From Bacteroidetes bacterium GWF2_33_38 (lineage in GTDB: Bacteria > Bacteroidota > Bacteroidia > Bacteroidales > GWF2-33-38), in NCBI GenBank assembly GCA_001769505.1, contig MEOF01000040.1, forward strand, positions 1 to 64,000: a stretch of DNA of 64,000 nucleotides, written 5' to 3'. Numbering within the stretch: the first letter of the stretch is position 1; each line of letters starts with the position of its first letter. The notes beneath the pieces were generated by a model. That model was not told the origin of the DNA, did not search any database, and worked only from the letters and a program-made list of their open reading frames with translations. Position numbers and translations under genes: made by a program. Positions 1,791 to 54,066 of the stretch are shown one piece after another.

Positions 1791-3671
1791 TTAATCCTTA
1801 TAAAATCGAATATTTAAAGCATCGATGTTAAAAGTTTTTTTGCCTTTATTCCATGTATAAATCTTTAGCACATCGTTGTTGTCAGCAACATAATCGTCGG
1901 GAAAAGTAAAAACTTGCACAACATCAAACCATGTTTTCGATGAGTTGGTAAAATTATTAAATTTCATATTTCTCCAATATTTCGATTCGCCATTGTTTTC
2001 AATGCCGATAACTTGATTTACGTCTTCTAAATCGCTACTCTCCGAATAGCATTTTAGCGAAACAACAAGTTTTTGAAATTTGAAATCCAATTCTGAAATA
2101 TGGTAGCTTATTGACGAAGCATATTCTAAGTTTTTAGAAATTTTTAAACTCGATTTTCCTTCAAAATATATTACCGAATCACGATTTTCGATATTTTGTT
2201 CAAATGATTCAAAATTATCAATACAAGCTTGTTCCGAAAACGATGATTCATTGTTTTTTGAAAAAATGTAAGCTTCTGAATTAAAATGTTCCGAGTAGTC
2301 TTTTGTATATGGATAATATAATTTTATGAACTCAATCGTTTCGGCAAAATTTGCAATATTCGACCAAGCAAATATTAAATACGGTGTTTTACTTTCTTTT
2401 ACAATAGTTGTAAAACGAACAATGTCCTCTTGAGTGTCTATCCTATATTGTTCAAAATGAATTGAATCGGCGTCTTTAGGCAAATAGTATTGAATATAGT
2501 AGGGTTTGTTAATGTTTATTAAATTGCAAACCTTATCTTTTCCTAATTCTGAGTTCCATGTTTCAATTTTTTCGGCTATTTTTTTGAATTCGCCAAAATG
2601 CTCGGTGCTGTAATATTTTTTCTCAAAGCTTGTGCTGTAAATCAGTATTGTACTATATAAGAACAGTAAAACATAAAAAATTATGGGTTGAATATTCCTG
2701 AAAAATGAGAAGAATCCCAAAATGAGAAAGGGAAAGGAGAATAGTAAAACTGAATATTGCAAAACAGGATTTTTATAAATTGAGTAAAAATATCCAGTTA
2801 AAAAGGGAAGAAGAAACAGGATTAACGAAACAATTTGTAGCTTGGAGAACCGAATGTTTTTAATCGACAATATGAGCAAAATTACAAAGCAAATTAACGA
2901 AGTCCACAAAACGATATACGAATCATTTAAAATGTAGAATAAATATTCCCAAATCCAATCCGATTCTGGTTTTCCGAGCCAACCACCTACGCCTCCCATT
3001 TCGATTTGAGCCATAAAAATCGTTGCGTGAGGCAGATATAAAATAATTGATAAAACAATTCCGATTAGGTAATATTTTAGGTTTTTTCGGCTCAAATAAA
3101 ACAACCCGAATAAACCCATGAAAATTACAGTTAAAAAGCTGAAATAGTGAGTGTAAGCGGCTAATGCAATCGAAATCCCATATCCAATGCCGATTTTATA
3201 ATCATGTTTTTTCTCAACGAACAACTTTGTCCAAAAAAAGATATTTACTAATGTAAAAAATAGCCCAATGCTGTATGGACGTGCGAGTTGGCTATAAAAA
3301 ATTGGATATTCGAGAAACGCCAACGTTGCCGAAGCAAATAAAGCCGATTGTTTATCAAACCATTTATTTGCAACCATATAAATAAGTACAATCGAAAATA
3401 TTCCTGCCATTATAAATGGAAAACGTATAGAAAATACGCTGTCGCCAAAAATATTTGTCCAATAGTACAAAAACAGTTGAACTCCGGCAGGATGCCCGTC
3501 GGTTTTTATACCTAAATCAATTAAATCGGACAAATTATCGTATTTTAGTCTTGATAGAGCACTTAATTCATCGTTGCTAAAAGACATTTCCGACGAATTG
3601 TAAAATCGCATAATGGCTCCAATAGTTGTAATAACTGTTATTGCAATATAATCGAAATATTTCTTTAACAT
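1791..3671 (-). CDS. GT39/ArnT-like membrane glycosyltransferase
   Basis: 626 residues. The N-terminal 450 residues form many hydrophobic helices, and the first periplasmic loop carries SNDELSAL (Asp34-Glu35), the acidic motif of polyprenyl-phosphate-dependent GT-C glycosyltransferases (PMT/ArnT/DUF2723-like). A later YSQLARPYS loop is typical of the same families. They move sugars from polyprenyl-phosphate to lipid or protein acceptors on the outer face of the inner membrane. Residues of about 470-626 are non-membrane and look like a beta-sandwich ending, probably periplasmic. The gene is tail-to-tail with the DUF58 gene (3 bases between the stops). The substrate cannot be told from sequence. 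Confidence 0.75.
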   Translation of the reverse strand: MLKKYFDYIAITVITTIGAIMRFYNSSEMSFSNDELSALSRLKYDNLSDLIDLGIKTDGHPAGVQLFLYYWTNIFGDSVFSIRFPFIMAGIFSIVLIYMVANKWFDKQSALFASATLAFLEYPIFYSQLARPYSIGLFFTLVNIFFWTKLFVEKKHDYKIGIGYGISIALAAYTHYFSFLTVIFMGLFGLFYLSRKNLKYYLIGIVLSIILYLPHATIFMAQIEMGGVGGWLGKPESDWIWEYLFYILNDSYIVLWTSLICFVILLILSIKNIRFSKLQIVSLILFLLPFLTGYFYSIYKNPVLQYSVLLFSFPFLILGFFSFFRNIQPIIFYVLLFLYSTILIYSTSFEKKYYSTEHFGEFKKIAEKIETWNSELGKDKVCNLININKPYYIQYYLPKDADSIHFEQYRIDTQEDIVRFTTIVKESKTPYLIFAWSNIANFAETIEFIKLYYPYTKDYSEHFNSEAYIFSKNNESSFSEQACIDNFESFEQNIENRDSVIYFEGKSSLKISKNLEYASSISYHISELDFKFQKLVVSLKCYSESSDLEDVNQVIGIENNGESKYWRNMKFNNFTNSSKTWFDVVQVFTFPDDYVADNNDVLKIYTWNKGKKTFNIDALNIRFYKD

Positions 3672-3693
3672 TTAGTTCATATTTTTCAAGTTT

Positions 3694-3701
3694 CAAAAAT
3701 A
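3694..3701 (-). promoter_or_regulatory. -7 element TATTTTTG for the GT39 gene
   Basis: On the minus strand TATTTTTG (TAnnTTTG) lies 23 bases before the ATG at 3671, giving a short leader. No exact TTG is seen 19 bases upstream, so only the -7 half matches consensus. Confidence 0.45.
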
Positions 3702-3865
3702 ATCTTTTCTTTTAATATTAAACATACATGTTTGTATATTAAAATGCCTAATATTTCTATAAAGTTTTTTACAATAGTTGAAAAAAAATTTTTTTATTTA
3801 CAAAAAGTACTTCATATTCGTTTTTTTATATAATTTTATAATCGAAGTAACAAAAAAAAATCATT

Positions 3866-4882
3866 ATGGGTTTATTCGATAAAGGAGGCGTAAAACGCTT
3901 TATTCGTTGGGCAGAAAAAAATAATATTAAACTTCCAACTGACGATAGTAGTAAGCTAAAAGAGCTTAAAAAGTTAAATCTTAAGTTTAAAGAAATTAAA
4001 GAACTGCCCGATGAAATTGGAAGTCTTGAGGGCTTGGTCGAACTTGATTTAAGTTACAATGAGTTAACTTGTCTCCCTAAAGATATTACATTGCTTACAA
4101 ATCTTGAGGTATTGAACATTGAGCGAAATAAACTTAATTGTTTTCCTAAAGGCTTGTCAAAACTTAAAAAGCTACGTGTTATTGACTTCGAAAATAACTT
4201 TATAACTTCAATCGACCAAGAAATTGGAGCAATCGAAAATCTCGAAGTCCTTGATTTGTTTTTTAACAATCTCACAAGCTTGCCAGCCGAGATTGGAAAT
4301 TTAAAAATGTTGAAAGAATTAAAATTAAGTGGGAACAATATTACGCATCTGCCAGCCGAAATTGGTAAACTTACGAATTTGGTTAAGTTAAATTTACAAA
4401 GCAATAAATTAAATGAACTTCCAATTGAAGTAGCGAAATTGATTAATTTGGAAGAACTTGATATTTGGGCAAATAACATAAAATCGGTTCATGACGACAT
4501 CAAAAATCTACCTAAGTTAAAAAACTTTGAGTTGATTGTTAATGTTGAAAAACTGAACAAAAAACTCATCGAGGCTTCTCAAGCTGATGATGTAGTTGTG
4601 GCAAAAGAAATGCTTGTAAAAGGTGCTGATGTTAATTACAAATGGAAAGATTATGCAGGAACAGAGTTTACAACAGCCTTGTTCGAAGCAAAAAGTTTGA
4701 ATATGATTCGTCTGTTATTGTCACACGAAGCTGATGCAAGCATAAAAAGACATAAAAGAGCTCAGTCAAGTATTAAAGTTTGGGAGTCGGATTCAAAGAA
4801 TACTGATGAATATGAATCATTCTTAACAAAAAGACACTCGCCTGATGTTGAGAAATATCTAAAATATCTAAAATTATTATAA
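3866..4882 (+). CDS. Leucine-rich repeat protein with ankyrin-like tail
   Basis: 338 residues, no signal peptide or membrane helix. After a short basic N-terminus, residues of about 30-230 hold eight or so LRRs of 23 residues with the bacterial pattern LPxEIGxLxxLxxLxLxxNxL (for example LPAEIGNLKMLKELKLSGNN). Residues of about 235-290 contain an ankyrin-like pair (AKEMLVKGADVNYKW, then a RLLLSHEADASIK segment). Such proteins are cytoplasmic protein-binding scaffolds. There is no enzymatic domain and no secretion signal. It stands alone, with more than 190 bases on each side, so no partner is suggested. Confidence 0.75.
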   Translation: MGLFDKGGVKRFIRWAEKNNIKLPTDDSSKLKELKKLNLKFKEIKELPDEIGSLEGLVELDLSYNELTCLPKDITLLTNLEVLNIERNKLNCFPKGLSKLKKLRVIDFENNFITSIDQEIGAIENLEVLDLFFNNLTSLPAEIGNLKMLKELKLSGNNITHLPAEIGKLTNLVKLNLQSNKLNELPIEVAKLINLEELDIWANNIKSVHDDIKNLPKLKNFELIVNVEKLNKKLIEASQADDVVVAKEMLVKGADVNYKWKDYAGTEFTTALFEAKSLNMIRLLLSHEADASIKRHKRAQSSIKVWESDSKNTDEYESFLTKRHSPDVEKYLKYLKLL

Positions 4883-4977
4883 CAAATTTGCTTATATGCA
4901 AAGGGTTGCGGTGGAATTAAATATAATCAACCGTTAAACTTTTTTGAGTTTTAAATTTTGTTTTATTCTTAATTTAA

Positions 4978-5145
4978 GTTGCGAATTTCTCTTTTTTATC
5001 GGTAAAATACTTCGTAAAAGTAATTTACTGTAATCCAGAAGAATCGTTAGGCAAATCCCAACGTGCTTCAAGATTGTATTTAATAATTGATGTTTTGCAA
5101 AATTATCACAAAGAGGCTAGTAAAACCTCCAATACTTCACTTTAA
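4978..5145 (+). other. Possible remnant of a coding sequence
   Basis: A plus-strand frame without ATG runs from 4978 (after an in-frame TAA) to a TAA at 5143-5145. Its last two thirds read like protein (NPEESLGKSQRASRLYLIID). It overlaps the tail of the PlsC gene on the other strand. It may be a gene fragment; the family is unknown and chance is possible. Confidence 0.15.
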
Positions 5146-38585: not shown

Positions 38586-38731
38586 ATTAAAATTTACCAA
38601 ACTCGTTAGTTTATAAAGTTTGTAAAATTGAATTAAAGTTTAGAAAGAAAATTTTGAATTTGTTTGGAATAGCATGGATAATCTTATAAGAGTATCTGAA
38701 AAAATAATAGGCTTGAACAGTATAATTTTTG

Positions 38732-38739
38732 TACCTTTG
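38732..38739 (+). promoter_or_regulatory. -7 element TACCTTTG for the pseudouridine synthase gene
   Basis: TAnnTTTG 18 bases before ATG 38758. It lies inside the longer open frame that begins at 38674, so it decides the start in favour of 38758. Confidence 0.5.
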
Positions 38740-38757
38740 TTTAAAATAAATCAAGAA

Positions 38758-40047
38758 ATGAGAACGAGAATCCCTAAAGACAACAATAAACGTTCATTTG
38801 TAAAAAATGATGAAAAGTCGCAAGCAATTGAGCAAAAACCTTATAAAAAAAGAGACCAAGAAAAATATTCGGACAAAGACACTAAACCCATTGTAAGAAA
38901 ACGACGTGATGATGACTCAAAATCTTTGGATAGAAAACCATTTAAAAAAAGTCCGTCACACGATAAATACCCTGCTAAAGAATCGACTTCATACGAACGA
39001 AAACCTTACAAAAAAAGAGCGCAGGACGAAAAATATTCGGATAAAGACACTAAACCTATAGTAAGAAAACGACGTGATGACGACTCAAAATCGTCTGAAT
39101 CAAAACCATTTAAAAAAAGTCCATCTCACGATAAGTATTCTAATAATGATACTCCTTCTCGTGAAAGAAAAAGAGATTCGCAAACTTCAACCGAAAGAAA
39201 ACCTTATAAGAGAAGAGATTCAGACGATAAATCTACCGAAAAAGATAGGAAATATTCAGAACATAAAAGAAATCCAAAACCTAGATTAGGGAAAACCGAA
39301 AACAGTAAACGAAAAACATTTAAAAGCGATGAGCCTATTCGATTAAATAAATACATTGCTAATTCTGGTATTTGCTCTCGTCGTGAAGCCGACGAATATA
39401 TAAAATCGGGTGCTGTTACAATTAACGGAGTAGTTGTTAAAGATATGGGCATAAAAGTTCATCGGAGCGATAATGTGCAGTTCGAAGGCAAACACTTAAA
39501 CCCTGAACGAAAAGTATATATTTTGTTGAATAAACCTAAAGATTACGTAACAACGTTGGAGGATAAACATGCTGAAAAAACAGTACTCGATTTAATTAAG
39601 GGAGCTTGTTCCGAAAGAGTTTATCCTGTTGGCAGACTTGATAAAAATACAACTGGTGTTTTGCTTTTAACTAACGATGGTGAATTAACTAAGTATTTGA
39701 CACATCCATCGCATAATAAAAAGAAAATTTACCATGTTCATTTAGATATTCCGTTTAATATGAATGATTTTGATAAACTGCTTCAAGGTATTGAGCTTGA
39801 AGATGGTTTTATAAAAGCTGATGAATTGCAATACGTTGACCCAGCTGATAAAAGCCAAGTCGGTGTCGAAATACATTCTGGACGAAACCGAGTTGTACGT
39901 AGAATTTTTGAACACTTCGGATATACAGTAAAAAAACTCGATAGAGTCGTTTTTTCAGGCTTAACCAAATATAATCTTCCTCGTGGGAAATGGCGTTTCT
40001 TAACCGATAAGGAAATTAACATGCTTAAAATGGGAGCTTTTGAGTAA
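38758..40047 (+). CDS. rluB: Pseudouridine synthase, RluB/RsuA family, with basic repeat extension
   Basis: 429 residues from ATG 38758 (MRTRIPKD). The frame is open from 38674 but a -7 promoter element lies between. Residues 1-190 are a low-complexity Lys/Arg/Asp/Ser extension with two copies of a 55-residue unit (KYSDKDTKPIVRKRRDDDSK) and a partial third. An S4 domain follows (IRLNKYIANSGICSRREADE), then the RluB/RsuA catalytic domain with GRLDKNTTGVLLLTNDGEL (catalytic Asp) and SGRNRVVRRIFEHFGY. It would modify a uridine in 23S (RluB) or 16S (RsuA) rRNA. The tail is probably unstructured and RNA-binding, as in other Bacteroidota RluB proteins. Confidence 0.85.
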   Translation: MRTRIPKDNNKRSFVKNDEKSQAIEQKPYKKRDQEKYSDKDTKPIVRKRRDDDSKSLDRKPFKKSPSHDKYPAKESTSYERKPYKKRAQDEKYSDKDTKPIVRKRRDDDSKSSESKPFKKSPSHDKYSNNDTPSRERKRDSQTSTERKPYKRRDSDDKSTEKDRKYSEHKRNPKPRLGKTENSKRKTFKSDEPIRLNKYIANSGICSRREADEYIKSGAVTINGVVVKDMGIKVHRSDNVQFEGKHLNPERKVYILLNKPKDYVTTLEDKHAEKTVLDLIKGACSERVYPVGRLDKNTTGVLLLTNDGELTKYLTHPSHNKKKIYHVHLDIPFNMNDFDKLLQGIELEDGFIKADELQYVDPADKSQVGVEIHSGRNRVVRRIFEHFGYTVKKLDRVVFSGLTKYNLPRGKWRFLTDKEINMLKMGAFE

Positions 40048-40335: not shown

Positions 40336-42084
40336 ATGATAACCAATTATCTTAGCTATAAAATTAAAATAAAAGACCTTGAGTTTGTTACAGAAGATGG
40401 ACGAAAATTCCCTAACACTGCAGCAATTTCTTTTTACGACATAAATAAAAAAGAAACCGATTATATCGAAAAGGCATTTGTTGAACAAGAAACGGTTTTT
40501 CAATTAATTGATAATGGAGAAGATATAAATATTAATGAATGTTATATCGAAAACTTTTCGTTAAAAAATTATCGAAAATCAAGAAACATCGAAAAAGACG
40601 AAATCGTAAAAATAAAAAACTTTTCGGCAATTGATTGTTTTTTCGATTCACACGGAGAAACCGATTTTTCTTTTGCTGTTTTTCAAGGAGATTTTGCTAA
40701 TTTTTCAAAGGCACATTTTATAAATGGCGGTATAAATTTTGATTCCGTTAATTTCGAAAAAGCCGATGCCGACTTCAGTTATGTATATTTCAACAATGGA
40801 AATGTAGATTTTGCCAATGTGATTTTTAGCGGAGGCGATATTACGTTTAAGAATACGCTTTTTGGAGAAGGGGAGAAGAATTTTCAATATACCGATTTTG
40901 GAAAAGGAAAACTGAGTTTTATAAATACTGATTTTGGAAATGGTGATGTTTTGTTCCTGAATTCCGATTTTAGCGATGGAGAAGTTTCGTTTAAAGTCGC
41001 TCGATTTGGAGACGGAAAAGTCGATTTTCATTTCTCTAAATTTGGAAAAGGAGATATTAGTTTTGAGCAAACCGACTTTGGAACAGGGAAAAAAGATTTT
41101 CGAAAAATAGAATTTGGCTCCGGAAAAGTAAATTTTAACCGAGCTGTTTTTGGCGATGGAGATATTTCTTTTGAAGCCTGTCAACTTTCGAAGGGGAAAA
41201 TAACATTTAAAAAAACTATTTTGGGAAACGGACTCAAAAGTTTTGAACTACTCGAATTTCACGATGCCGAGATTTTAATAGAACGTGTGGATTTTGGAGT
41301 CGGAAACGTTTCGTTTAACAAATCGCATTTAAAAACCTTATCTCTTAAATCGTGCCATTTGGATAATTATATTGATTTGCGAGTTGCTAAATGCGATTAT
41401 GTCGATTTATCCGATACCATAGTTCGCGACATTTTGGATATTCAGCCCTACGATTTTGACGTTAAAATTACTAACCTGAATATAGTAGGAATGAGGCTGC
41501 TTGGGCGAATTGATATCGATTGGTATAAAAATAAAGTTGACAAAATAATTGGTCTACAAACAGATACTACGCATTTCGAAAAAGCCGAACAATTTAGAAT
41601 TTTAAAAGAAAATTATGGAAATATAGGATTGTATAATTTCGAAGATTTAGCTTATGTGCAATTCAAACGATTTGAACAAAAATCAGATTTTCATGTTGCA
41701 TTATCTAAAAATAAATTACACGGTATTTGGCAGTTTCCTGCCTACGGTTTTAAATGGTTAATGTTTGATAAGGTTGGATTATATGCGACTTCTCCATCTC
41801 GCGTTTTTCTGAGCACAATGGTTACATATTTATTTTTCTCGTTAATTCATACCATTTTGCCATATATGATGGATACTGCAATTAACTGCATTGACCCGGC
41901 TACTGGTTTCATGTCCAGATTTTTAAATACAATGTATTATAGTGCAATCACATTCTTTACAATTGGTTATGGCGACTGTTCTCCTGTCGGATTTTTACGA
42001 GTAATCGCAAGCCTTCAAGGATTTATAGGTGTGTTTATGATGTCGTACTTTACAGTTGCTTTTGCCAGAAAAATATTGAGATAG
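40336..42084 (+). CDS. 12-residue F-repeat solenoid fused to a K+ channel pore
   Basis: 582 residues. Residues 1-105 are a soluble N-terminal domain. From about 112 to 328 the chain follows a strict 12-residue period with Phe (or L/I) spaced 5 and 7 apart, FxxxxFGxGxxx (for example DFGKGKLSFINT; Phe at 164, 171, 176, 183, 188 and so on to 279), about 18 repeats. A pentapeptide-like stretch follows (LSLKSCHLDNYIDLRVAKC). The C-terminus is a two-helix channel module: helix 490-511, pore helix 529-541, selectivity filter TIGYGD 542-547, helix 552-576. The filter is the canonical K+ signature. No signal peptide, so the solenoid is cytoplasmic. Fusions of pentapeptide repeats to this pore module are known; this exact repeat I do not recognise. 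It stands alone. Confidence 0.8.
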   Translation: MITNYLSYKIKIKDLEFVTEDGRKFPNTAAISFYDINKKETDYIEKAFVEQETVFQLIDNGEDININECYIENFSLKNYRKSRNIEKDEIVKIKNFSAIDCFFDSHGETDFSFAVFQGDFANFSKAHFINGGINFDSVNFEKADADFSYVYFNNGNVDFANVIFSGGDITFKNTLFGEGEKNFQYTDFGKGKLSFINTDFGNGDVLFLNSDFSDGEVSFKVARFGDGKVDFHFSKFGKGDISFEQTDFGTGKKDFRKIEFGSGKVNFNRAVFGDGDISFEACQLSKGKITFKKTILGNGLKSFELLEFHDAEILIERVDFGVGNVSFNKSHLKTLSLKSCHLDNYIDLRVAKCDYVDLSDTIVRDILDIQPYDFDVKITNLNIVGMRLLGRIDIDWYKNKVDKIIGLQTDTTHFEKAEQFRILKENYGNIGLYNFEDLAYVQFKRFEQKSDFHVALSKNKLHGIWQFPAYGFKWLMFDKVGLYATSPSRVFLSTMVTYLFFSLIHTILPYMMDTAINCIDPATGFMSRFLNTMYYSAITFFTIGYGDCSPVGFLRVIASLQGFIGVFMMSYFTVAFARKILR

Positions 42085-42281: not shown

Positions 42282-44555
42282 GTGCCTAAATTTTTAAAAA
42301 TAAGTTTTGTTTTTTTCTCGATAATTGTATCGCTTTCAACTCAGTGTGTTTCTGATGAGTTGATAAATAAGTCATTAACCATTGATACCGCTACGTTTAA
42401 TAAAATTTATCATACTTTTGAAAAGTATTATGAGTCAGAAAATTATGATAGTGCTTATTATTATGGTCAGCAGGTTGTTTTACACTCATATAATTTGTTT
42501 GAACGAAAAAAGTCCATTACATACTCGTACATGGGAGAAATAGCCCAACGAAAAAATTTGTACACAGATGCTATTTTTTACTACAAAGAAGCGATGGCAA
42601 TTTATAATAAAACCGACGATTATAAATCAATAGCCTCAATAAATTCAACAATTGGCTATTTGCTGTATGTTACAGGCGAATACGAAGAAGCTTCTGTATT
42701 ATTGTCAAAGAACGAATCGTTTTGCTTTAAACACAATTTAAAGACCTCTTTAGCCCGCACATACATGGGATTAGGCTTTGTGTACAGAGGTTTAAATGCT
42801 TTTGGAAAAGGGCTTGAGTTTTTTTCTAAGTATTTAGAAATAGCATATGAATTAGATAATTATCAAGATATTTCAACCGCTTTAAACGAAATAGGAAACG
42901 TTTATTTGCTTTCAGGTGATTATGAAAAAGCAATTTCGTATCAAATTAAATCGATTGAGGTAAAGGAAGAATACAAAGATACCTTGGCTCTTTGCTATTC
43001 GTACAACGATATTTCGCTTTCGTATAAGTATTTGGGAAAATACGATTTGGCTTTGGAATATTTATTAAAGTCGGAAACAATAGCTATTAATTTTAAGTAC
43101 GATTATGTGCTGACAGCAGTTTACATAAATATTGCCGATATTTATAATCAAAAAGGAGATTTTACAAAAGCAGAAATCTATTTGAATAAAGCCTTAGCCA
43201 TTGCGTTGGGATTAAATCTAAAAAGCGAATTATCGGCTGTTTATGCTGAATTTAGTAGATTTATGGCTGAAAAAGGCGACTATAAAAAAGCCTACGAGTA
43301 CCAAGAGTTAACTACTTTGTACGCTGACTCGCTGCTCAACGAAAATGTTCATAAACAACTTAACGAACTTGCTGCCAAATATGAATTCGACAAAAAGCAA
43401 AAAGAAATAGCTTTGTTATCGAAAGATCAGCTTCTTCAACAAAATAAAATTACACAACAAAAATACATTCAATATACCTTGATATTCGGAATTGTTGTTT
43501 TTGTGATTGTATTAATAATTTTGGTTAACAGATATCAAATCAAACAGCGAGCAAATAAAGAATTGGCAAGAAAAAATGAAGAGATTTTTCAACAAAAAGA
43601 AGAGATAAGTTCTCAACGTGATGAGATTGAATACCAGCGTGATAAATTGTTGGATTTGAACTCCGAGATTTCAACTCAACGCGACCAGGTTACTTTACAA
43701 CGCGACGAAATTGTTGTGAAAAATAAAGAAATTAACGATAGCCTTAATTACGCAAAACGAATTCAGCAGGCATTGTTGCCCGATATTTCAAAAATATTTA
43801 ATGAAATAAATTCTAGTCTAGGAGAGTTGGGGGAGCCATTTGTTTTTTTTCGACCTAAAGATATAGTTTCAGGCGATTTTTATTGGATAAGAAAAAAGAA
43901 TAATAAGGTTTTTCTAACAGTAGCCGATTGTACTGGACATGGTGTGCCTGGTGCTTTTATGAGCATTCTGGGAATATCAGCATTAAATGAAATTATCAAC
44001 AACAACATTACTGAATCATCACAAATTTTATTGCAATTAAAAGCTTACATCATAAATTCGTTGCATCAAACCGGAAAAATGGGTGAAATGCAAGACGGAA
44101 TGGACATGGCTTTTTGTATAATCGACAGCGAAAATCGCACAATTGATTTTGCGGGAGCAAACAACTCGCTTTACATAGTTAAAAGTTTGCCAAGTTCATC
44201 AAGTTATAAAGTAGACGAAAAAACAAATTCCAACTTTATGAACTTTGAACTTTATGAACTAAAAGGAGATAAAATGCCATTGGGGATTCATGTTTCGGAA
44301 AAACCATTCAAAAGTGTATTTATAAATTACTTAGAAAACGACAGAATATATTTATTTACTGATGGCTATAAAGACCAAATTGGCGGTGTAAATAATAAAA
44401 AACTCAAGACCGTAAATTTTAAAAATAAAATTTTACAAATAAGCCTTCTGTCAATGACTCAACAAAAAGAAGAATTGACTAACTATTTTGAACAATGGAA
44501 GGGTTCAAACGAACAAGTTGACGACGTGCTTGTTTTAGGCATTAAACTTAAGTAA
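42282..44555 (+). CDS. TPR protein with membrane helix, coiled coil and SpoIIE phosphatase
   Basis: 757 residues from GTG 42282. Signal-like N-terminus (FLKISFVFFSIIVSLSTQC), then seven or so TPRs (about 50-360; for example YDLALEYLLKSETIA), a membrane helix (about 398-417), a coiled coil (about 425-490; EEISSQRDEIEYQRDKL) and a PP2C/SpoIIE domain (about 495-757) with FRPKDIVSGDFYW, VADCTGHGVPGAFMS, GMDMAFCIID and DDVLVLGIK, which supply the metal-binding aspartates. The TPRs lie in the periplasm and the Ser/Thr phosphatase inside, so it is probably a transmembrane signal receiver acting on an anti-sigma or anti-anti-sigma partner. No partner gene is adjacent. Confidence 0.85.
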   Translation: MPKFLKISFVFFSIIVSLSTQCVSDELINKSLTIDTATFNKIYHTFEKYYESENYDSAYYYGQQVVLHSYNLFERKKSITYSYMGEIAQRKNLYTDAIFYYKEAMAIYNKTDDYKSIASINSTIGYLLYVTGEYEEASVLLSKNESFCFKHNLKTSLARTYMGLGFVYRGLNAFGKGLEFFSKYLEIAYELDNYQDISTALNEIGNVYLLSGDYEKAISYQIKSIEVKEEYKDTLALCYSYNDISLSYKYLGKYDLALEYLLKSETIAINFKYDYVLTAVYINIADIYNQKGDFTKAEIYLNKALAIALGLNLKSELSAVYAEFSRFMAEKGDYKKAYEYQELTTLYADSLLNENVHKQLNELAAKYEFDKKQKEIALLSKDQLLQQNKITQQKYIQYTLIFGIVVFVIVLIILVNRYQIKQRANKELARKNEEIFQQKEEISSQRDEIEYQRDKLLDLNSEISTQRDQVTLQRDEIVVKNKEINDSLNYAKRIQQALLPDISKIFNEINSSLGELGEPFVFFRPKDIVSGDFYWIRKKNNKVFLTVADCTGHGVPGAFMSILGISALNEIINNNITESSQILLQLKAYIINSLHQTGKMGEMQDGMDMAFCIIDSENRTIDFAGANNSLYIVKSLPSSSSYKVDEKTNSNFMNFELYELKGDKMPLGIHVSEKPFKSVFINYLENDRIYLFTDGYKDQIGGVNNKKLKTVNFKNKILQISLLSMTQQKEELTNYFEQWKGSNEQVDDVLVLGIKLK

Positions 44556-44783: not shown

Positions 44784-46037
44784 ATGTTAACTAATATGGT
44801 TATGAAAGAATATATTTCTCTATCTGAAGCAGCAGAATTATTAGGAAAAAGCAAAGAAACTTTGCGTCGTTGGGATAGAGAAGGAAAGTTAACCGCTGTG
44901 CGTGAACCGATGAGTAATTATCGAGTTTACAAAAAAGATCAATTCGATTTGTTTTCAAATTTTTTATTGAAAAATGAAATAGAAGAAGTTTCAAACTATG
45001 CAAAAGCCGAAAAAGAATATACCGTTTTAGAATTATTTGCAGGAGCAGGAGGTTTGGCAGTAGGACTTGAAAAAGCTGGTTTAAATTGTGTCGCTTTGAA
45101 TGAAATTGATAAATCGGCTTGTCAAACTTTACGCAAAAATCGTCCATTTTGGAATGTTTTAGAAGGAGATATTAAAGATTATTATTTTTCGGAATATTAC
45201 AATAAAGTTGATGTTGTAACTGGAGGATTTCCTTGTCAAGCATTTAGTTATGCAGGAAAAAAATTAGGTTTAGCTGATGCTCGAGGAACTTTATTTTATG
45301 AATTTGCGAGAGTTGTAAAAGAAGTTAATCCACCAATTTGTATTGGCGAAAATGTTCGTGGTTTATTAAGTCACGAAAATGGAAAAACTTTGCAAGGAAT
45401 GATTTCAATTTTAGATGAAATTGGCTACAATGTAGTTCCTTATGAAGTTTTAAAAGCTATAAATTTTAAAGTTCCTCAAAAACGAGAACGATTAATTTTG
45501 GTTGGAATTAGAAAAGATATTGATATAAAATACGAATATCCAACACCATTTAAGAAAATTTACACACTTTCTGATGCTTTGAAAAAAAGCGAATTATTCG
45601 ATTGTGATGTTCCTCAATCTGAAGGTTCAAAATATCCAAAACATAAAAAAGAAGTTTTAGATTTAGTTCCTCAAAAAGGCTATTGGCGTGATTTACCTTT
45701 AGATATTCAAAAAGAATTTATGGGACAAAGTTTTTATTTGGGCGGTGGAAAAACTGGAATGGCACGGCGTATTGGTTGGGATGAACCGTGTTTAACATTA
45801 ACTTGCAGTCCAGCACAAAAACAAACAGAAAGATGTCATCCAGAAGAAACTCGTCCGTTTACGGTTCGTGAATATGCCCGAATTCAAACTTTTCCTGATG
45901 ATTGGCAATTTGAAGGTTCAATTTCGCAACAATATAAACAAATAGGAAATGCGTTTCCAGTTAATTTGGCTCGTGAAGTTGGATTTTCGATTGTGAAATT
46001 TCTGAATAATTTCTATCATAACTTTAAAAACAAATAG
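44784..46037 (+). CDS. DNA (cytosine-5) methyltransferase with N-terminal HTH
   Basis: 417 residues from ATG 44784; ATG 44802 (MKEYISLSEAAELLG) is an equally good start. Residues of about 8-60 are a MerR/excisionase-type helix-turn-helix (ISLSEAAELLGKSKETLRRW). The C5-methyltransferase motifs follow: I LELFAGAGGLAVG, IV GGFPCQAFS with the catalytic Cys, VI GENVRG, VIII PQKRERLILVG, X QIGNAFPVNLA. Its TRD region is short. It protects host DNA against the endonuclease encoded 2 bases downstream; the HTH may let it repress its own promoter, as with HTH-carrying M.EcoRII/M.MspI-type enzymes. Confidence 0.9.
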   Translation: MLTNMVMKEYISLSEAAELLGKSKETLRRWDREGKLTAVREPMSNYRVYKKDQFDLFSNFLLKNEIEEVSNYAKAEKEYTVLELFAGAGGLAVGLEKAGLNCVALNEIDKSACQTLRKNRPFWNVLEGDIKDYYFSEYYNKVDVVTGGFPCQAFSYAGKKLGLADARGTLFYEFARVVKEVNPPICIGENVRGLLSHENGKTLQGMISILDEIGYNVVPYEVLKAINFKVPQKRERLILVGIRKDIDIKYEYPTPFKKIYTLSDALKKSELFDCDVPQSEGSKYPKHKKEVLDLVPQKGYWRDLPLDIQKEFMGQSFYLGGGKTGMARRIGWDEPCLTLTCSPAQKQTERCHPEETRPFTVREYARIQTFPDDWQFEGSISQQYKQIGNAFPVNLAREVGFSIVKFLNNFYHNFKNK

Positions 46038-46039
46038 AT

Positions 46040-46876
46040 ATGACAAAACAAGAAAGAGTTGCTTTAGCAATTAAAGAAGTTGTTTCAAAAATGATGAATA
46101 GAGTTATGGATAACGTAATGATAAAAGATCCATTTATCAAAGAAAAACATCAAGCTGCAAAACCACTTTATGCAGCTTTAGTGCCTGATGAAATTTTTAA
46201 AGGTTCGCATTTCGAAAGACGGTTTGTAACTCCTTTTGGAAGTGTTTGGGAACGATTAGCTCAAGTTGTTGCAATTGAAGCTCACGGAAATTGCACAATG
46301 GGACATAATGTAAGTGGAATTGTTGGAAGCGAAAGTTTAAGAAGAATTCAAGAAGTATTAAATAGACTAGAACATAACAAAAAAGGAGAATTTAAATTTA
46401 AACCTGATTGGAAAAGCGAACTTAAATATATTCATGAAGGTGGTGGAGAGCCAATTCCTGTTAGTGTAACTTGTGATATTTTTATTCATAATAAAGAAAC
46501 AAATACAAAGTATGCTTTTGAATTAAAAGGTCCTTTACCAAATAGCGACCAAACAAAAGTAAGTAAAGAAAAAATGTTCAAATTATTGGCAATGAAACCA
46601 AAACAAGTTGATTTTGCATATTATGCCTTGCCTTATAATCCTTATGGAAAAAAAGAAGATTATAAATGGGCTTTTCCTTTAAGATGGTTTAATATGCAAG
46701 AAGATGAGTCTGTTTTAATCGGAAATGAATTTTGGGAATTAATTGGAGGTGCAGGAACTTATAATAACTTCATCAAAGAAGTTAATCTTTTAGGACAAGA
46801 ATATAGAGATAGAATTTACAGAGAATTTTTAGAAATTGAACCTCCATTGAATTCAGAAAGCAATTTATTAAAATAA
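46040..46876 (+). CDS. TdeIII-family type II restriction endonuclease
   Basis: 278 residues. It matches the TdeIII family along its length: LYAALVPDEIFKGSHFERRF, GSVWERLAQVVA, the PD-(D/E)xK-like CDIFI...YAFELKG (about 147-173), PNSDQTKVSKEKMFKLLA, YYALPYNPYG, and WFNMQEDESVLIGNEFW. The family is, from memory, tied to GGNCC-type sites; the exact site here is not known. It starts 2 bases after the first methyltransferase and ends 10 bases before the second, so it is embedded between two protective enzymes. No frame damage, so probably active. Confidence 0.85.
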   Translation: MTKQERVALAIKEVVSKMMNRVMDNVMIKDPFIKEKHQAAKPLYAALVPDEIFKGSHFERRFVTPFGSVWERLAQVVAIEAHGNCTMGHNVSGIVGSESLRRIQEVLNRLEHNKKGEFKFKPDWKSELKYIHEGGGEPIPVSVTCDIFIHNKETNTKYAFELKGPLPNSDQTKVSKEKMFKLLAMKPKQVDFAYYALPYNPYGKKEDYKWAFPLRWFNMQEDESVLIGNEFWELIGGAGTYNNFIKEVNLLGQEYRDRIYREFLEIEPPLNSESNLLK

Positions 46877-46886
46877 AATTTGAGAA

Positions 46887-48419
46887 ATGAAACAAAATAA
46901 ATTTACATTCATTGACCTTTTTTCAGGAATTGGAGGTTTTAGAATGGCCCTCGAAAATATTGGTGGAAATTGCTTAAATTTTAGCGAAATAAATAAAGAT
47001 GCAATAAATACATATTGTACAAATTTTGATGAAGATTTTGAATATAATTTAGGAGATATTACCAAGATAAAAAAATTGCCAAATCACGATTTACTAACTG
47101 GTGGTGTGCCTTGTCAAAGTTGGTCAATTGCAGGAAGAAATCTAGGTTTTGATGACGATAGAGGACAATTATGGAACGATACAATTTATCTTCTTAATCA
47201 ATCAAAACCAAAAGCATTTATTTTTGAAAATGTTAAAGGTTTAGTTGACCCAAGAAATAAAGAAGCATTTTCTTATATATTAAACCGCATTAGAGAGGCA
47301 GGATATTTTGCAAATTATTATTTAATTAATTCTTATGATTATAGCGTTCCGCAAAATAGAATGCGTGTATATATTGTTGGTTTTAGAGAAAAAGAATTTG
47401 CTGAAAAATTTAATATCCCAAAACCATTAAAAAACAAAATACGATTAGGTAATATATTGTCAAATTTTGAAGTTAAATCAATACAAAATGAACCAATTGT
47501 TCAGAAAAATTTATTTGGCGAAAATATTACAACTCGAAATATGAGTTTATCAAATAGCAACGGGTTTAATGACTATTTTTTATTTAATGATTTACGAAAT
47601 GGTCATTCAACAATTCATTCTTGGGATATTTTAGATACAACTGAAAGACAAAAAAATATTTGTTATTTATTATTAAAAAATAGACGCAAAAGTGCATATG
47701 GTAATTTAGATGGAAATCCTTTGTCATATAAACATTTTAAAGAATTAGATAATTCAATATTAGAAAATGAACTAGAAGAATTAGTTACATTAGACATATT
47801 AAAAAAAGAAGGATATTCATTTTCAATTAATGATTTTGACAAAAAAAATATTTCAGAAGATGAAAAATGTATTCTAGATTGTTCTATTAATAATTTCTTA
47901 TTTGTTGAGAATTTAAAAACTGATAGAAATTTAAAGTTAAAAAAAATATCAATTTCTAAAACATTAAAAACATTACAAGAAAAAGGAGTAATTTCAAGTT
48001 GTGAAAATAGATATGATTTTAAAAACACAAAAATAAGTACTGGTTTATTTGGTATTAATAGAATATTTCTACCAACTTCAAATATTTTTCCAACATTGGT
48101 TGCAAGCGATACAAATGATTACATTTCAACTAAAGAAATTAATGCAAAAACCCCAATTGAATACAAAAATATTTTTATTGAAGAAATTTTTAAAAGAGGA
48201 AATTTCCGAAAGATAACAAAAGAAGAAACTTGTCTTATTCAAGGTTTTCCCAAAGATTTTAAATTGCCCGAAAATAGAGCAAGATGGATGAAACTTTTAG
48301 GAAATAGTGTTTCAGTTCCAGTTATTGAGATGTTAGGAAAAGCTATTTTTGAAACAGGCATTTTCGACTTAAATGAGAATGTTTTAGAATATAAGCCTGT
48401 CGCAATGAGTAGCTATTAA
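46887..48419 (+). CDS. Second DNA (cytosine-5) methyltransferase
   Basis: 510 residues. Motif I FIDLFSGIGGFRMALE, IV GGVPCQSWSIAGRN with the catalytic Cys, VI FENVKG, VIII PQNRMRVYIVG, and X LLGNSVSVPV. Between VIII and IX is a long target-recognition region (about 190-440) with RNGHSTIHSWDILDTTERQK and a Lys/Glu-rich, very AT-rich stretch (47.6-48.0 kb). It ends 17 bases from the convergent fdhA gene. With the first methyltransferase it could protect the two strands of an asymmetric site, or a second site. AT-richness above the neighbours suggests the cassette was acquired. Confidence 0.9.
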   Translation: MKQNKFTFIDLFSGIGGFRMALENIGGNCLNFSEINKDAINTYCTNFDEDFEYNLGDITKIKKLPNHDLLTGGVPCQSWSIAGRNLGFDDDRGQLWNDTIYLLNQSKPKAFIFENVKGLVDPRNKEAFSYILNRIREAGYFANYYLINSYDYSVPQNRMRVYIVGFREKEFAEKFNIPKPLKNKIRLGNILSNFEVKSIQNEPIVQKNLFGENITTRNMSLSNSNGFNDYFLFNDLRNGHSTIHSWDILDTTERQKNICYLLLKNRRKSAYGNLDGNPLSYKHFKELDNSILENELEELVTLDILKKEGYSFSINDFDKKNISEDEKCILDCSINNFLFVENLKTDRNLKLKKISISKTLKTLQEKGVISSCENRYDFKNTKISTGLFGINRIFLPTSNIFPTLVASDTNDYISTKEINAKTPIEYKNIFIEEIFKRGNFRKITKEETCLIQGFPKDFKLPENRARWMKLLGNSVSVPVIEMLGKAIFETGIFDLNENVLEYKPVAMSSY

Positions 48420-53007: not shown

Positions 53008-54066
53008 TTATTTTGTGTGCTTTATAAATAATTCTTTAACTTTTTGAGGTGTTAAATTTGCAGCAACCTTTTCGTTAATCATAATGCAAGGAGCTAAGCT
53101 GCAAGCTCCAATACATGCAACACTTTCGACCGAGTATTCTAAATCATCGGTTGTTTCGCCTTCTTTAATTTTTAATTGCGATTCAATTTCTTCTAAAATT
53201 CGAGGGGCTCCTTTTACATGGCATGCTGTGCCTCGACAAATCATGATATGATTTTTTCCTTTGGGTTTAAATCTAAATTGTGCGTAGAAAGTTGCTACTC
53301 CGTATATGTTGCTCAATGGAACTTTCGTAAATTTGGCAATTGCTTTCATCGATTCTTCTGATAGAAAACCAAATTCATTTTGAACTTTTTGAAGCAAGGG
53401 AATTAATTCTTCTTCGCTTCCTTTAAAGTTCGAAAAAATATAATCATAAGGTGTTTGCATATGCGTTTTATTTATTCTCAGTTCGTTGATATTATTAACA
53501 TCTTCAGGATAATTTACATTCGCAAAACAGTGTTCGAAGTTGGATGGAATTTCGCAGTAAAAAGCCTGTCGGGTATCGATAAAAAGTCTGATTTTATGGA
53601 ACTTCGATGTTTCGATAAAATTGATTAATTCAGGCAAAACATTTTTTGAATAAAGGGTAAATAAGGGCTCAATTGAATTTTGTTTAGTAGGAACTAAAAT
53701 TTCAGGATTTTCAATAAAATATTGATTTACAAAATAATTAACAACTTCTTCGTTGATATTTGGCATGTCGCAAGCTATGACAAAACAAGTCGAATTATTA
53801 GCATTTTTTAGGGCTGCGTGAATTCCTCCAAGTGGTCCAATGTTTTTATATTCGTCGCCAACAATACGAACATCCTTAAAATTCATATACGAATCGGGTA
53901 AATTTGTAACGATAATTATATCTTCGAATAAGGCATTAAGAATTCGAATATATTTTTTTATTAGAACTTCTCCGTTAATTTCCATAAAAGCCTTATCAAT
54001 TCCATTGAAACGAGAGTTTTTGCCTCCTGCCAAGATTGCACAACTGATGTGTTTGAATTTTCTCAT
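53008..54066 (-). CDS. MobA-NuoE fusion (molybdenum cofactor guanylyltransferase + [2Fe-2S] subunit)
   Basis: 352 residues in one unbroken frame. Residues 1-195 are MobA: AILAGGKNSRFNGIDKAFM (nucleotide-binding), GPLGGI, CDMPNIN and the EPLFTLY segment. MobA links GMP to molybdopterin to form the MGD needed by formate dehydrogenase. Residues 205-352 are NuoE/HydC: LLQKVQNEFGFLSEESM, GVATFYAQFRF, and the [2Fe-2S] ligands Cys277, Cys282 (CRGTAC) and Cys318, Cys322 (CIGAC). An in-frame ATG at 53460 (Met203) could also start a free NuoE. First gene of the operon. MobA fused to this subunit is unfamiliar to me and ties cofactor synthesis to the enzyme. Confidence 0.85.
   Translation of the reverse strand: MRKFKHISCAILAGGKNSRFNGIDKAFMEINGEVLIKKYIRILNALFEDIIIVTNLPDSYMNFKDVRIVGDEYKNIGPLGGIHAALKNANNSTCFVIACDMPNINEEVVNYFVNQYFIENPEILVPTKQNSIEPLFTLYSKNVLPELINFIETSKFHKIRLFIDTRQAFYCEIPSNFEHCFANVNYPEDVNNINELRINKTHMQTPYDYIFSNFKGSEEELIPLLQKVQNEFGFLSEESMKAIAKFTKVPLSNIYGVATFYAQFRFKPKGKNHIMICRGTACHVKGAPRILEEIESQLKIKEGETTDDLEYSVESVACIGACSLAPCIMINEKVAANLTPQKVKELFIKHTK

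Follow-up and report, generated by a model that had tools for sequence, protein, structure and literature searches.

We describe a protein of 582 amino acids from Bacteroidetes bacterium GWF2_33_38 that is best read as a stand-alone crown channel of the HalA type and as a variant of the known pentapeptide/Ion_trans_2 architecture. Its gene is a complete open frame with an ATG start, in the 64,000 nucleotides of contig MEOF01000040.1 that we analysed and refer to as the window. We consider it likely that the protein is a subunit of a tetrameric, K+-selective channel with two transmembrane helices (2-TM) and a cytoplasmic pentapeptide beta-helix crown, coupled to the pore by a hairpin in the HalA layout. 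The first-pass annotation of this DNA had proposed a K+-channel-type pore carried on a repeat solenoid, and this much held up, as both a PF07885 pore and the 12-residue units were confirmed. Orthologues align over residues 1–582 with identities of 64–45%. The N-terminal cap is conserved among them and keeps its CYIENFS motif; inspection of the cap by eye gave no evident signal peptide. The features are listed in Table 1.

Table 1. Features of the channel gene, with positions in the window and residues of the encoded protein.
Feature	Residues	Positions	Strand	Basis
Whole gene, pentapeptide-solenoid channel, 582 aa	1–582	40336..42084	+	ORF; orthologues; AlphaFold model
N-terminal beta-rich cap, short helix at 51–59	1–110	40336..40665	+	model secondary structure; conserved CYIENFS motif
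19 units of 12 residues, FxxxxFGxGxxx, Pentapeptide_3-type beta-solenoid	111–338	40666..41349	+	period; PF13576; model strands
Last irregular solenoid coils (SCHLDNY..DLSDTIVRDI..GMRLLG)	339–395	41350..41520	+	strands 352–357, 366–368, 378–382, 391–393; conservation
Helical linker with conserved EQFRxLKxNF..G.Y..ED.AY..FKR hairpin	396–486	41521..41793	+	invariant columns; helices; Foldseek of 396–582 against HalA
First transmembrane helix	487–511	41794..41868	+	model; PF07885
TIGYGD selectivity filter	542–547	41959..41976	+	near-invariant in 60 sequences except the I/V position
Second, pore-lining transmembrane helix, ending YFTVAFARKILR-stop	554–581	41995..42078	+	model; invariant Y571–F576, R578, K579

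The repeat is strictly periodic in the protein. Phenylalanine occupies 34 of the 38 key positions in 19 consecutive units, whereas none of 2000 shuffled versions of the protein exceeded 9. Self-identity within the repeat region is 0.30 at a lag of 12 residues and 0.32 at a lag of 24, against about 0.03–0.13 at lags other than multiples of 12, and Phe-Phe pairs occur at lags of 5, 7 and 12. Over 60 relatives the consensus of the unit is F-x-x-[ATS]-x-F-G-x-G-x-[VIL]-[SDN]. The first-pass annotation had counted about 18 units at residues 112–328 and had suggested a repeat finder as a check on the period. The 12-residue register is indeed exact by the lag identities, and the count was nearly right, with 19 units at residues 111–338. 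Tandem Repeats Finder reported no 36-base array in the DNA of the gene, only short weak arrays, which indicates that the periodicity is old and selected at the level of the protein.

It had also been claimed that the repeat matches no known family, and a match to an established Pfam family had been named as the result that would overturn this. PF13576 (Pentapeptide_3) is such a family. Scanned alone (positions 40666–41355), the solenoid matches PF13576 with an E-value of 3.5e-8 and 34.0 bits, above the curated cut-off of 27 bits. Three orthologues (L006, L010 and L012) score 42.8, 42.6 and 58.1 bits, and a protein from a Streptomyces plasmid whose 12-residue Phe period is identical (WP_329583145.1, annotated as a pentapeptide repeat protein, lag-12 identity 0.55) scores 100.7 bits. 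Judged by these matches of the solenoid, its orthologues and the Streptomyces protein, the repeat is of the established pentapeptide kind, with a 5+7 spacing. The Streptomyces protein differs from ours in its N-terminal region and in that a Pfam scan found no channel domain in it. Weak matches to Reovirus VP3, CDtoxinA, Cadherin_3 and similar families were dismissed as below cut-off and inconsistent.

One could instead regard the 12-residue repeat as a new class of solenoid, unrelated to pentapeptide repeats, since the five-residue register is broken by the FGxG insertion and the full-length protein, searched against Pfam and NCBIfam, returned the pore and not the repeat family. We believe that this missing report of PF13576 is probably a filter effect. 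With scores over the cut-off for the isolated solenoid and strong ones for the orthologues and the Streptomyces protein of the same period, and with pentapeptide structures as the next Foldseek matches after HalA, we give the idea of a new class practically no credence.

The AlphaFold2 monomer model, built on 60 aligned relatives, has a mean pLDDT of 91.5 and a pTM of 0.83. It consists of a beta-rich cap at residues 1–110, a beta-solenoid that runs to residue 395, helices at 401–480, and a membrane part with a helix at 487–511, a pore helix at 525–542 and a second membrane helix at 554–581. The longer strands of the solenoid lie at 259–268, 283–292, 307–316 and 331–338, and because they recur every 24 residues, one coil corresponds to two 12-mers. 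Regular pentapeptide helices have 20 residues per coil. Here the FxxxxF plus FGxGxxx spacing lengthens alternate faces and the beta-solenoid is retained. The Phe-ladder beta-helix is common to PF13576 proteins, HetL, AlbG, MfpA and 6fls, whereas the period of exactly 12, the FGxG turns, the 24 residues per coil and the fusion to a channel set our protein apart from the solved pentapeptide proteins. A second aligner (VIA) placed HetL on the solenoid with a Z-score of 16.6 and an rmsd of 2.8 over 223 residues, and the pentapeptide matches from Foldseek and VIA agree with the modelled beta-helix in placing the solenoid in the PF13576 family. As a point against our reading, phage tailspike beta-helices take higher ranks than HalA when the full model is searched with the general aligner. 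We read the high Z-scores of tailspikes and polysaccharide lyases, at 6–9% identity, as generic beta-helix similarity.

The C-terminus matches PF07885 (Ion_trans_2) with an E-value of 1.3e-10 and 41.4 bits (cut-off 22.5). The match spans residues 512–580 in the window protein and starts at 490–502 in orthologues. Besides the profile match, the region has the two helices and the TxGYGD filter of a K+ pore. Across 60 relatives the filter reads T-[IV]-G-Y-G-D, with T542, G544, Y545 and G546 invariant and D547 present in at least 90%. The second aligner matched the pore to those of HCN, SthK and the plant channel GORK with Z-scores of 11–12. Eight linker residues (L423, K424, G431, E436, D437, Y440, F443 and R445) are as invariant in the 60 relatives as the filter, which is as expected of a joint that transmits force.

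When the full model was compared with solved structures by Foldseek, the sole match at E ≤ 0.001 was HalA (9nyi), the DNA-gated channel of the Hailong anti-phage system, with an E-value of 1.6e-4 and a probability of 1.00; the ranks after it include the pentapeptide proteins 6fls, AlbG and MfpA. The whole-protein match has a low TM-score, 0.24 of the query; differences in crown length and hinge angle may be the reason. When residues 396–582 were folded alone, HalA was again found with a probability of 1.00, now with a query TM-score of 0.63 over the whole stretch, and the channels other than HalA among the matches listed had TM-scores of at most 0.40. The structural alignments with HalA have 10–13% identity, so the relationship is remote. 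HalA is absent from the top 50 of VIA for both models, which we do not count as evidence against it because long beta-helices or pores take up that list. Computation thus assigns the repeat and the pore to their families, gives the monomer fold and shows a conserved linker and a HalA-like layout. Like the window protein, HalA, which was solved with bound oligodeoxyadenylate, runs from a crown through a helical linker to a 2-TM K+-type pore. The window protein differs in its much longer solenoid of 12-residue register, in its extra N-terminal cap, and in that no HalB, the DNA-synthesising nucleotidyltransferase encoded with HalA in Hailong, was found alongside it. A protein that combines ordinary pentapeptide repeats with a pore of this kind (L015), from a genome of the window's order, has a sequence match to the HalA crown (E 0.007). 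This HalA-like channel with its ordinary pentapeptide crown (locus L125, positions 3660–4979) adjoins a histidine kinase and a response regulator, and no nucleotidyltransferase was evident beside it.

Our working model, which we hold to be the most likely, is a crown-gated K+ channel that responds to a cytoplasmic ligand. Channels of the 2-TM kind are expected to be tetramers, and for this protein we infer tetramer assembly, cytoplasmic placement of the solenoid, K+ selectivity and gating by the crown. In each subunit a cytoplasmic beta-helix of the Pentapeptide_3 kind, with 24 residues per coil, would be joined to the pore via the helical hairpin. By analogy with HalA, the four solenoids should crown the cytoplasmic mouth, above the inner opening of the pore. 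A cytoplasmic ligand or protein that binds to the crown or the N-terminal cap, or leaves it, would then act through the hairpin on TM1 and TM2, and the pore would open or close.

The family is widespread in Bacteroidota. Of 60 genomes of relatives, 18 held a match, and 12 of these matches (besides the window's own) were long enough to include the solenoid. A collection of 85,000 species genomes gave 282 confirmed relatives, and the 80 that we kept are almost all from Bacteroidota or Chlorobiota, as judged by title. In 395 genomes sampled evenly from the phylum, the pore matches were all more distant, and so the close family appears to be mostly restricted to members of the phylum near the order of the window. 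The fusion of the repeat to a pore in several genomes, which had been named as support for the original proposal, is borne out by relatives across many genomes.

A simpler explanation would be a housekeeping K+ channel that is gated at the pore by voltage, pH or tension, with the solenoid as a passive scaffold, a tetramer-stabilising anchor or a dock. The variation among orthologues fits this. Their solenoid surface residues vary while the Phe ladder and the glycines are kept, and the longer orthologues (666–701 aa) have about 7 more units than the 582-aa protein, with the distance between anchors increased by 81 to 89 residues, a difference in unit number that could be incompatible with a precise ligand site. 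In most genomes the gene also sits in conserved chromosomal context (AddAB, TrmD, RibH) and not in evident mobile islands. However, the invariant hairpin between crown and pore and the match to HalA suggest coupling, and the N-terminal cap is likewise conserved in orthologues. We therefore consider a passive solenoid rather unlikely, and we continue to prefer the crown-gated channel.

The layout also brings to mind an anti-phage role. In Hailong, poly-dA made by HalB is described as blocking the HalA channel (PMC13275509), and phage exonucleases as relieving the block (PMC12657230). Since the closest solved structure is blocked by oligo-dA, the guess in the first-pass annotation of a collar gated by DNA has a precedent. 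In an effector like that of Hailong, the crown would respond to DNA oligomers or to the activity of phage nucleases, and the channel, once released, would stop growth. HalA as best structural neighbour, the restriction-modification genes that adjoin the channel in the window, and addB, which encodes part of a DNA-end-processing nuclease and lies directly upstream in 48 of 81 genomes, all point this way. Against it, Pfam searches found no HalB-like nucleotidyltransferase among the window genes around the channel, and in the whole genome (PF18765, PF01909) only MNT-type proteins of 104–106 aa on other contigs. PADLOC gave no match. The order-wide and mostly syntenic distribution is atypical for defence genes. 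Nor is the crown basic: the net charge of the solenoid is −5 in the window protein and on average −6.6 in 60 relatives, and a mildly acidic solenoid does not favour binding of nucleic acids. We judge an anti-phage effector to be improbable.

In the window, Pfam places a pseudouridine synthase upstream of the channel and a TPR-SpoIIE protein downstream, followed by a type II restriction-modification set. The pseudouridine synthase (38674–40047) is of the RluB type; its long N-terminal extension is highly charged and is based on a tandem repeat of 168 bases. The protein directly downstream (42282–44555) combines TPR, coiled coil and a SpoIIE phosphatase. In the restriction-modification set (44784–48419), two C5 cytosine methylases flank a TdeIII-type restriction enzyme, and the first methylase has an N-terminal MerR helix-turn-helix. 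Further along, a MobA-like NTP transferase is fused to a thioredoxin-like [2Fe-2S] domain (53008–54066) and adjoins NuoF- and NuoG-like redox subunits.

Across the 81 loci, the only conserved neighbours of the channel are housekeeping genes such as addB. This gene is the called gene immediately upstream on the same strand in the 48 loci mentioned above, commonly 30–200 bases away. The usual order in many Bacteroidota (loci L025–L104) is addA, a radical-SAM gene (TIGR01212-like by sequence), addB and the channel, where we assigned the names addA, addB and radical SAM by reading the sequences ourselves. Mapped onto a tree of 60 proteins, the label for the upstream gene needs 5 changes, compared with 13 for the neighbour downstream. 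This suggests an ancestral linkage of addB and channel that was broken several times, although it is only suggestive because the downstream label can take more states and some of the "no" labels result from intervening or split ORFs. In the window's own genome, addA, the radical-SAM gene and addB lie together on another contig (L126) and the channel is not with them. A more speculative version, to which we assign very little probability, is that the channel is co-transcribed with AddAB and guards DNA-end processing, as a HalB-free relative of Hailong whose crown would sense DNA fragments or the state of AddAB and open the K+ pore when a phage disturbs them.

The channel had been put forward as the best candidate for an undescribed system, which we cannot maintain, as the combination of pentapeptide repeats with Ion_trans_2 exists elsewhere, even in archaea. 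A Salinibaculum protein (WP_302083717.1), annotated as a pentapeptide repeat protein, has the same domain order as the window protein (PF13576 163.7 bits, PF07885 27.5 bits) and 22% identity over window-protein residues 62–581, but it is archaeal, has 779 aa and differs in repeat spacing. A literature search for pentapeptide repeats combined with a channel gave nothing relevant. No solved channel other than HalA has this layout among the structures that our searches returned. Our results suggest a broad bacterial class of HalA-like crown channels, most of them without the Hailong partner and with crowns of very unequal length. The recurrent position of the channel behind addB is a concrete lead, and the family of the window protein is a chromosomal relative in which to ask what else such crowns sense.
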